Below, in pieces: positions 1,577 through 10,480 of a stretch of 37,091 bases of DNA. This DNA comes from Chitinophagaceae bacterium (GTDB lineage Bacteria > Bacteroidota > Bacteroidia > Chitinophagales > Chitinophagaceae): contig JAGIAP010000011.1 of assembly GCA_017744805.1 (NCBI GenBank), positions 1-37,091 of the forward strand, read 5' to 3'. The position numbers and the translations under genes were made by a program. A model generated the notes under the pieces. It saw nothing but the letters and a program-made list of their open reading frames with translations. It had not been told where the DNA came from and searched no databases. How positions within the stretch are numbered: position 1 is the stretch's first letter; each line of letters starts with the position of its first letter.

Positions 1577-1969
1577 ATGAAAATGAAAGACGGTAAAAAA
1601 AGGCTATCCGCCCCTGAATGTAATTCAGCGCTTTCCGCTGTGGGCGATGCTTTGTATGTGATCGGAGGCAAATGGAAACTGCGTATCATCATAGCTTTGT
1701 CTGAAGGCAATAAGCGCTTCAATGAACTGCAGCGGAGAGTGGAAGGGATCTCGGCCCGCGTATTGTCGAATGAATTGAAAGACCTGGAGATGAACGGCTT
1801 TGTAAGAAGAAAAGTGGACGCGAATGCCAAGCCGGTTATTGTGGAATATGAACTGATGGACTATTCCGATTCCCTGGAAGGTGTTCTGCGTGCGCTGCAC
1901 GATTGGGGCCGCCAACATAAGGCGCGTATCATGCAGCGCAGCAGGGAAACAAAACTGGAAGAAGCTTAA
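1577..1969 (+). CDS. HxlR-family winged-helix transcriptional regulator
   Basis: ALSAVGDALYVIGGKWKLRIIIALSEGNKRFNELQRRVEGISARVLSNELKDLEMNGFVRR is the diagnostic HxlR wHTH region. Confidence 0.95.
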   Translation: MKMKDGKKRLSAPECNSALSAVGDALYVIGGKWKLRIIIALSEGNKRFNELQRRVEGISARVLSNELKDLEMNGFVRRKVDANAKPVIVEYELMDYSDSLEGVLRALHDWGRQHKARIMQRSRETKLEEA

Positions 1970-2901
1970 TTCTTTTTATCCAGGGATAGGATGATGCCTC
2001 CGCCATTGCCGGTTTGCACCTGTGGCAGCTTGCCATCCCATTTCTGGGTTTTGAGATATTCGATATAAGTACCGTTGAGGCTCACCTGCTTTCTTCTGAT
2101 GGCTTCGGCCTCACCGGAAGCAGCAATTACCTGTGCTGCACTATCCGCTCTGGCCTGTGCTATCTTTCTCTCTCCTTCTGCAATAGCTACCAGCCGTTGG
2201 TTCTCGGCCACCTGTACTTCCTGTATCGCTTTCGTTTTGGCTTCGATGGATTGCTGCAGCGCTTCGGGAGGAATGATATTGGTCCTCAATTGGGAAATGG
2301 TGAACCATTTGGCTACACGCTTATTGGCCTCGTTCACGATATCGGCTTCAAATTTTTCCCTTTCGTTGAAGATATCGTCCACCGCCCATTTGTTGGCTAC
2401 ATCATTTACAGTGCCTACAATGGCGGTCTGCAACCACTGCTGTTCAATCTCCTTGATGCCTAACCGAAGGTTCTGGAACATATCGCCCACATCTCCCGGT
2501 TTCAGTGAGTAATTGAAACTGGGCTTGATAGTGGCAGAGAAACCACCCTTGGTGATCACCTGTTGTTCCGGGTAATCGATATGTTGCTGAAAGGTGGGGA
2601 ACTCATAGAGCTTGCTGATCCAGGTATTGTAGATCACCCAGCCGGTCTTGTACTCGAATTTGCTGACGCCACGGTTATCACCGGTTAGGTTCACCTTGAT
2701 ACCTACATGACCGGCATCCACACGCTCCATCACAAATGGCTGAACAGCCGAGATGATAAAACCTCCGATCAATAACAAAATACCGAACCAGAACTTGGAA
2801 GAATTGACAGCGGAGCCACCTGCACGTATCTTGGCCCAGTTGGAACGAAAATAAAGGAACACGACCAGCAATGTGCCGATCACAAATAAAGCAGTGATCA
2901 T
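1966..2901 (-). CDS. Prohibitin/SPFH-domain membrane protein
   Basis: N-terminal TM segment, then ERVDAGHVGIKVNLTGDNRGV and an Ala/Glu/Gln-rich coiled coil (AEGERKIAQARADSAAQVIAASGEAEAIRRKQ). Its stop overlaps the HxlR stop convergently (ttaa 1966-1969). Confidence 0.93.
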   Translation of the reverse strand: MITALFVIGTLLVVFLYFRSNWAKIRAGGSAVNSSKFWFGILLLIGGFIISAVQPFVMERVDAGHVGIKVNLTGDNRGVSKFEYKTGWVIYNTWISKLYEFPTFQQHIDYPEQQVITKGGFSATIKPSFNYSLKPGDVGDMFQNLRLGIKEIEQQWLQTAIVGTVNDVANKWAVDDIFNEREKFEADIVNEANKRVAKWFTISQLRTNIIPPEALQQSIEAKTKAIQEVQVAENQRLVAIAEGERKIAQARADSAAQVIAASGEAEAIRRKQVSLNGTYIEYLKTQKWDGKLPQVQTGNGGGIILSLDKKN

Positions 2902-3068
2902 CTTCTGATAAGTTTTTTTATAAGTGGGATGATGAGAAAATATATTAATGCGATCTGGATCACAATCGCCAGCACCAGCAATAGGGTAGAGCTTTGGCGA
3001 TTGATCAGGTATTCTACATTCAATGTAGTGAGCGCAATGAATAACAGTATCCTTAACAAGGCGATCAT
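2898..3068 (-). CDS. Small (56 aa) predicted two-TM membrane protein, not in the supplied ORF track
   Basis: Manual minus-strand translation: MIALLRILLFIALTTLNVEYLINRQSSTLLLVLAIVIQIALIYFLIIPLIKKLIRR*. The TGA (2898-2900) overlaps the prohibitin ATG (2899-2901) as ATGA. Confidence 0.65.
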   Translation of the reverse strand: MIALLRILLFIALTTLNVEYLINRQSSTLLLVLAIVIQIALIYFLIIPLIKKLIRR

Positions 3069-3156
3069 GGGGTTGTATTTTCTACATAATATTGGTCGTG
3101 TAATGATACTATATATTACGTAGATACAAAATGATCCCAGTTAAGAATACCCAATC

Positions 3157-8569: not shown

Positions 8570-10480
8570 ATGAAAAAGCTACATATATCTTCGGGCCTTT
8601 TACTTTCAGCTATCCTGCTGTCATCGTCCTGCAAGAAGTTCGAAGACATGAACTACAATCCCAAAGAGGCTAGCGGTGATCAGGTGCAGGTGGAATACTT
8701 CATCAATAATTCCATCATCGGCGCACAAATGGATCCGCATATCGCCGAGCGGGTTTTTGTCCTGTACTGGAAAACAGCCAGCCACCAGCATCTTACCAAT
8801 GGGATCACTTCCGGTAACCTGGATGATGGCTGGAGCACAGATTATTACCGCTATATTTCAGGTTGGTTGAACTCCATCAACAAAGGCATCGAGATCGCCG
8901 ACGAGAAAAAAGCCAATGGAACTGCCTTTGCCTGGACTGAGAATCTCAAACAGGTTGCACGTATCTGGCGCGCTTACCTGATGAGTGAAATGAGCGATAA
9001 TTTCGGTCCCATCACCATCAACGGCTTCCAGGGCGTCAACCCTGAGTTCAGCGACGTGAAAACTGTGTATTATTTCATCCTCGATGAGCTGAAAGATGCT
9101 TCTGCCAAACTGGACCTGAGCCTGACGCCATCCGATGAATTGAAGAAAACAGATCCTGCTTACGCTTATAACTATGCGCAATGGCAAAGATATGCCAACT
9201 CATTGCGCCTGCGCCTGGCTATGCGCCTCTCCGAAGTGGACGCCACCAAAGCAAAGGCCGAGTTCCAGGATGCTGCTACCAAACCGTTGATCACCAATAT
9301 GAGTGATGCCTTTCAGGTAGCTGAAAAAGCTAACGGATGGGATGCGCTTTCAGGTGTGATGAGCCGCGAATGGAATGCTCAGATCCTGAGTACCACACTC
9401 GAGAATATCTATACAGGGCTGGGTGGAATTAAGTCTGCCGACCTGCTTGGCGCCAATGCACAATCGCATATCAAGCCGGCTGATTATGCAGGCCTTAAGC
9501 TCACAGACCATTTTTCCACTAAAACGAATGATCCCTTTGCAGGTTACTGGATGGATGGTATCCCTTTCACCATGGATCCCCGCGCATTCAAAGCCTTCCC
9601 GCTGGCAGGCGATTTCACCAATCCTGATTTCTGTAAATACCCTTCTTATGATCAGGAAGCATGGGAAACAACCACAGCAGATCTGAATGATGCCAATGGC
9701 AATGCAGTGTTGACGCTTGATGGCGCCTTCACCTGGAACGGTTCCAATGGTGGCGCATGGGGCGTACCAGGCTCGAAGAACGGATGGCGCGGATGGCCGG
9801 GAGCTGCCCCCAGGCTGGCTTTGAAGTACAGGAACAGTACCAATAAAAGAGTGTTCTTTGCTCCCTGGGAAACCTATTTCCTGATGGCTGAAGCGGCTTT
9901 GAGAGGATGGACAGTTCCCATGAGCGCCGAAGAAGCCTACACGGCAGGTGTTCAGGCCAGCTTCGATTATTGGGGAATTGGTGGCCTTGCTTCCACTTAC
10001 CTGAACAGTGAGGATTACAACCGCCTGGGTACCTCCGTTAAATGGAGCCATATTACCGAGCCCCCTGCCAGCTATACCGTCACCTACAAGAATGGGTATA
10101 CCAATGTAGCAGGCACTGCCACTATTCTGTACCCTGTGAACAATTTGTACAAGAACGGTGCTGTAAAGAATGATCAACTCACCAAGATCATCACACAGAA
10201 ATATATTGCCCAGGTTCCCTGGTTGCCTTTGGAATCATGGAGCGATCGGCGCAGGTTGGGACTGCCTTTCTTCGAAAATCCGAATGCAGAGGCGGCGCTT
10301 GCCAATATGCCTGATCTCAATTCCGGCAACTATATGACGGGTAGTATAAAATTCTTCCCTCAGCGACTGGCCTATCCCGGTTCACTCAAGAACACGAACA
10401 GCAAGGGATATGATCAGGCAGTGGCTGCACTGGGAGGTCCTGATAAAGTGCTCACTCCACTTTGGTGGGCTAAAAAATAA
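8570..10480 (+). CDS. susD-like: SusD/RagB-family nutrient-binding outer membrane lipoprotein
   Basis: Lipobox region LLSSSCKKFEDMNYNPKEAS, immediately downstream of susC. SusD-like helical region, with C-terminal FFENPNAEAALANMPDLNSGNYMTGSIKFFPQRLAYP. Confidence 0.93.
   Translation: MKKLHISSGLLLSAILLSSSCKKFEDMNYNPKEASGDQVQVEYFINNSIIGAQMDPHIAERVFVLYWKTASHQHLTNGITSGNLDDGWSTDYYRYISGWLNSINKGIEIADEKKANGTAFAWTENLKQVARIWRAYLMSEMSDNFGPITINGFQGVNPEFSDVKTVYYFILDELKDASAKLDLSLTPSDELKKTDPAYAYNYAQWQRYANSLRLRLAMRLSEVDATKAKAEFQDAATKPLITNMSDAFQVAEKANGWDALSGVMSREWNAQILSTTLENIYTGLGGIKSADLLGANAQSHIKPADYAGLKLTDHFSTKTNDPFAGYWMDGIPFTMDPRAFKAFPLAGDFTNPDFCKYPSYDQEAWETTTADLNDANGNAVLTLDGAFTWNGSNGGAWGVPGSKNGWRGWPGAAPRLALKYRNSTNKRVFFAPWETYFLMAEAALRGWTVPMSAEEAYTAGVQASFDYWGIGGLASTYLNSEDYNRLGTSVKWSHITEPPASYTVTYKNGYTNVAGTATILYPVNNLYKNGAVKNDQLTKIITQKYIAQVPWLPLESWSDRRRLGLPFFENPNAEAALANMPDLNSGNYMTGSIKFFPQRLAYPGSLKNTNSKGYDQAVAALGGPDKVLTPLWWAKK

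Follow-up and report, generated by a model that had tools for sequence, protein, structure and literature searches.

A small ORF of 56 codons, lying immediately upstream of an SPFH gene in a Chitinophagaceae bacterium, is a genuine gene, far beyond what chance would yield. The best explanation for its product, to which a probability of about 0.6 can be given, is that it forms a hairpin in the inner membrane, is the regular operon partner of a phage-type SPFH and acts as a rim subunit of the SPFH cage, a reading in which both contact and function are what we infer. In the window, by which the whole 37,091-nucleotide stretch analysed is meant, the relevant features are the following:

1966-2901, minus strand: 311-aa SPFH/Band_7 protein of the PHROG_200 type, with N-terminal TM helices at residues 2-27 and 35-53, then the SPFH domain and a long helix (213-273).
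2898-2901, minus strand: ATGA stop/start overlap of the small ORF with the SPFH ORF, whose start lies at 2901.
2898-3068, minus strand: 56-aa two-TM small membrane protein (helices 2-22 and 28-55), predicted to be N-in/C-in with a periplasmic turn, EYLINRQSST.

The translation of 2898-3068 on the minus strand is MIALLRILLFIALTTLNVEYLINRQSSTLLLVLAIVIQIALIYFLIIPLIKKLIRR*, and both the peptide and the ATGA junction to the SPFH gene, as described in the initial annotation, match the window sequence exactly. The tests that had been set beforehand for this ORF (conservation, a conserved overlap and dN/dS) all speak for a true gene that is linked to the SPFH. A search of 60 relatives with the peptide gave matches at E <1e-9 in four congeners and in one member of another genus (G014), five other genomes in all, with the SPFH gene adjacent every time, while the one congener of five without the small ORF (G003) is also devoid of a close SPFH. 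Across 299 genomes from the family, the small ORF adjoins every one of the 16 full-length close SPFHs. A scan of named Chitinophagaceae-type genomes (Pseudoflavitalea, Pseudobacter, Pollutibacter, Taibaiella, Lacibacter, Flavihumibacter, Ferruginibacter and others) provided 31 near-complete orthologous SPFH genes, and a two-TM ORF of 55-72 aa, with two hydrophobic segments, is found directly upstream in 31/31; the 4-nt overlap seen in the window recurs in 21 of these loci, the stop-start distance being between -6 and +7 nt in the remaining ones. Between the window and its nearest relative (G001) the small ORF shows 24 synonymous and 5 non-synonymous differences (dS ~1.06, dN 0.04, dN/dS ~0.04), a ratio about equal to that of the SPFH gene.

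The layout extends further than the sequence. A two-TM ORF also lies upstream of SPFH relatives in three genomes that do not belong to the family, and upstream of most distant SPFHs, chromosomal or prophage, whose starts are lipoprotein-like; one genome (G594) has a relative of the SPFH and no such ORF. When the phylum was searched with the profile of the small protein, only the genome of the window itself was recovered; the sequence type is therefore a narrow one, however broad the layout. Pfam and NCBIfam searches with the 56-aa peptide matched no family (NdhL and the other Pfam matches were far under the cut-off), and solved structures searched by sequence gave none for it. An antisense ORF at 2929-3123 on the plus strand was discarded as a true gene, as it is interrupted by stops in relatives, and inspection of the upstream region for consensus promoters, including the Bacteroidetes TTTG/TAnnTTTG pattern, gave nothing useful. 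The small ORF thus stands as an example of a conserved gene overlooked by length cut-offs and gene callers.

The downstream gene belongs to the SPFH/Band_7 family, matching Pfam PF01145 with E=4.5e-22 (79.4 bits, cut-off 23.6), and to PHROG_200, whose profile it matches over residues 6-302 (E=3.2e-56). It carries two TM helices in place of the lipobox that is common in PHROG_200 and that the profile does not require; a lipobox was found in 0/77 window-type viral SPFHs. Taking into account that the loop between the two TM helices is basic, the SPFH domain should face the periplasm. Its structure model, of moderate confidence (mean pLDDT 65), has the human prohibitin complex as its nearest solved structure (E=2e-9), with further matches to stomatin and HflK/C and, lower, to QmcA-YbbJ (8z5g). 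Matches of Fis1 to the SPFH profile, obtained when solved structures were searched by sequence, were taken as chance. NCBIfam searches with this protein matched no family, and PADLOC defence models gave none for it.

AlphaFold2 models the 56-aa peptide as a two-helix hairpin with a mean pLDDT of 93. The chain ends with the second helix, without an NfeD/OB-fold domain or a Pfam NfeD match. In 102 of 105 small proteins the C-tail contains more basic residues than the loop, and thus both ends of the hairpin are predicted to lie inside. The turn itself is conserved: the motif E-[YF]-x-[ILVF]-[NS]-R is present in 43 of 73 small proteins, and a D-[ILV]-[ST]-G-S-W type in 16 of the 33 chromosomal ones. 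After correction for the SPFH domain, divergence of the small protein follows that of the SPFH N-terminal region only weakly (partial r 0.15).

Profile comparison shows clear homology between the chromosomal small proteins and the viral ones of the window type (score 63.6, against a shuffled maximum of 22.3). Toward PHROG_1130-type proteins the score is 34.4, above 40/40 shuffles (maximum 28.9), while that of the pooled phage small-protein profile was equalled by 1 of 40; block-shuffled controls had been added because, for the crAss set against itself, the reversed profile did not serve as a control (78%). This comparison suggests, less firmly, homology of the window small protein to PHROG_1130. 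A direct PHROG search with the window protein returned no PHROG_1130 match, only phrog_1470 at E=0.62, and PHROG_1130 matches 8/8 of the proteobacterial-phage small proteins tested. Even so, the window protein shares the traits of PHROG_1130, that is, two TM segments, a C-terminus predicted to lie inside and a gene position immediately ahead of a PHROG_200 gene.

The window SPFH is of the phage type (PHROG_200), and its two-gene layout occurs widely among phages. SPFH relatives occur in >500 phage records, and in IMG/VR 256 contigs, of up to 345 kb, encode relatives of the SPFH profile A2 (80 were kept, 53-78% identical). By automatic scoring, a two-TM ORF lies upstream in 44 of 53 non-redundant viral SPFH loci, versus 11 of 121 control ORFs (9%; Fisher p=6e-22). 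The small-ORF/SPFH arrangement can be recognised in annotated phages such as N4 (gp19-gp20), Moo19, ORM_20, Mx1, ProddE, Paxi, crAss-like phages, Cellulophaga phi4:1 and the P1-like RCS47. A first annotated set contained the two-TM ORF in 14/15 cases, FL-1 being the exception; in Lak-B5 it lies 82 nt before the matched part of the SPFH. A second set, chosen to be widely spread, had it in N4 (gp19), RCS47, Fraca and the myoviruses KB57 and R7, with one small gene between hairpin and SPFH in the last two; no clear two-TM ORF precedes the SPFH in phiEa104 and Ab22, and only a single-TM protein does in Staphylococcus and Bacillus phages (L274:515-823, L282:545-817, L276:658-792). In one viral contig, hairpin and SPFH lipoprotein share one frame as a single ORF (L162:2312-3307) that retains the SPFH start codon, possibly a natural fusion of the two. 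A sequencing error may also account for this arrangement, which is seen in a single metagenomic contig.

Some further observations concern these loci. The two-TM ORF of RCS47 (L280:630-866) is unannotated, matches PHROG_1130 (E=6e-16) and precedes an SPFH lipoprotein gene. The single-TM protein of the Staphylococcus and Bacillus phages has a long charged tail in 2/3. The annotation of phage SPFH genes as serine protease or transposase, under hits H9, H46, H79 and H122, is apparently wrong. Two small-protein/SPFH modules lie ~7 kb apart in a single prophage-like region (L122:2158-3110 and 9215-10167), and the module is also doubled in one IMG/VR contig (L145 and L152).

In the SPFH tree, chromosomal and viral window-type SPFHs form one bush in which at least three label changes are forced, and the chromosomal clade itself includes two viral contigs. 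This topology supports an exchange of the SPFH between phages and hosts; the direction and number of transfers are not supported, because the root of the tree is its midpoint.

The initial annotation had suggested that the peptide could be a dedicated partner of the SPFH. Near-universal adjacency and the one fusion speak for this, but two species of one genus (G125 and G200) keep the small ORF (L102:1483-1692 and L104:621-827) in genomes with no SPFH of this type at E up to 1. These orphans are under purifying selection (pN/pS 0.24 between the two species), and thus a strict dependence of the small protein on the SPFH is doubtful, and it may act alone. Their neighbours, as named from their translations, are presumably a divergent cyanophycinase-like gene and an APC-type transporter. 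It could therefore be proposed that the hairpin works by itself, or that it acts on a different membrane protein (FtsH or another SPFH, for instance), and that it is co-transcribed with the SPFH to serve a shared process and not as its subunit. The orphans, and the extra gene that separates the pair in KB57 and R7, fit this alternative, yet the adjacency and stop/start overlap that recur in phages and hosts, together with the fusion, make it unlikely.

Still less probable is that the hairpin is a class II holin, or a holin-like lysis regulator, acquired from a phage, with the SPFH adjusting lysis timing. Size, two TM segments, N-in/C-in topology and the charged C-tail agree with class II holins, and a peptidoglycan hydrolase or endolysin is encoded one to three genes away in cr126, cr106, SA5 and SEP1; however, no endolysin is adjacent in the window, in N4, in the chromosomal loci or in most loci, purifying selection retains the hairpin in bacterial chromosomes, and PHROG_1130 is not filed as lysis. 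That the ORF is a translated leader tuning SPFH translation, its product having no role of its own, is very improbable: the stop does overlap the SPFH start, but the low dN/dS, the conserved loop motifs, the confidently predicted hairpin, the orphans and the remote phage homologues all stand against it.

As the two genes accompany each other in many phages as well as in environmental bacteria, hairpin and SPFH are probably one machine. As rim companion of the cage, the hairpin would be made just ahead of the SPFH by coupled translation and therefore in near-stoichiometric amounts. The SPFH, whose fold is nearest to prohibitin and HflK/C, would oligomerise into a cage at the periplasmic side of the inner membrane, and the hairpin would pack at the membrane rim of this cage, its conserved short loop directed toward the SPFH domain. 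Most phages have a lipoprotein SPFH without membrane-spanning helices, and here the hairpin would provide the membrane-spanning rim. In the phage, the pair would most likely reorganise the host inner membrane, or the FtsH/HflKC quality control, during host takeover, candidate uses being the blocking of superinfecting DNA or the guarding of the membrane until lysis; the chromosomal pair of Chitinophagaceae would be related to it through phage-host exchange. Genes near the pair in N4 (gp18) and Moo19 (gp29) are annotated as similar to P22 gp17, and in phiSH19 an exclusion gene lies near the SPFH (PMC3220722), a hint of superinfection exclusion from gene context alone.

In the broadest form of this proposal, a previously undescribed two-part device of tailed phages, consisting of the two-TM hairpin and a periplasm-facing SPFH cage, would take over or seal the host inner membrane; Bacteroidota and Proteobacteria phages would carry it and Chitinophagaceae chromosomes would retain it, a suggestion whose chances we place slightly below even. 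The open-licence literature on phage SPFH, superinfection exclusion, N4 gp19/gp20 and PHROG_200/PHROG_1130 gave no description of the hairpin and phage SPFH as a pair. The context given in the initial annotation was right in tying the gene to an SPFH, but too narrow, overlooking the PHROG_200 type and the phage layout. A minimal partner can now be paired with a phage SPFH family found in >500 sequenced phage records and, since the pair is present in N4, which infects E. coli K-12, what phage SPFH proteins do can be tested directly.

Three known systems come closest. One is the phage pair exemplified by N4 gp19-gp20, filed as PHROG_1130 "membrane protein" and PHROG_200 "lipoprotein", with which the window pair shares gene order, a close or overlapping junction, size and topology, whereas its small protein has no PHROG_1130 match and its SPFH has two TM helices and no lipobox. 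The HflK/HflC and prohibitin cages resemble the window SPFH in fold, in the long C-terminal helix and in the periplasmic orientation predicted for it; unlike them, it has no adjacent FtsH or second SPFH gene, and its companion is a two-TM hairpin. SPFH-NfeD is an established operon partnership, in which the partner has been proposed to aid oligomerisation (PMC13086221). These operons (QmcA-YbbJ, FloA-NfeD) likewise join an SPFH scaffold and a TM partner in two genes; their SPFH domain faces the cytoplasm, whereas that of the window would face the periplasm, and the window partner is a bare 56-aa hairpin with neither an OB-fold domain nor an NfeD match.
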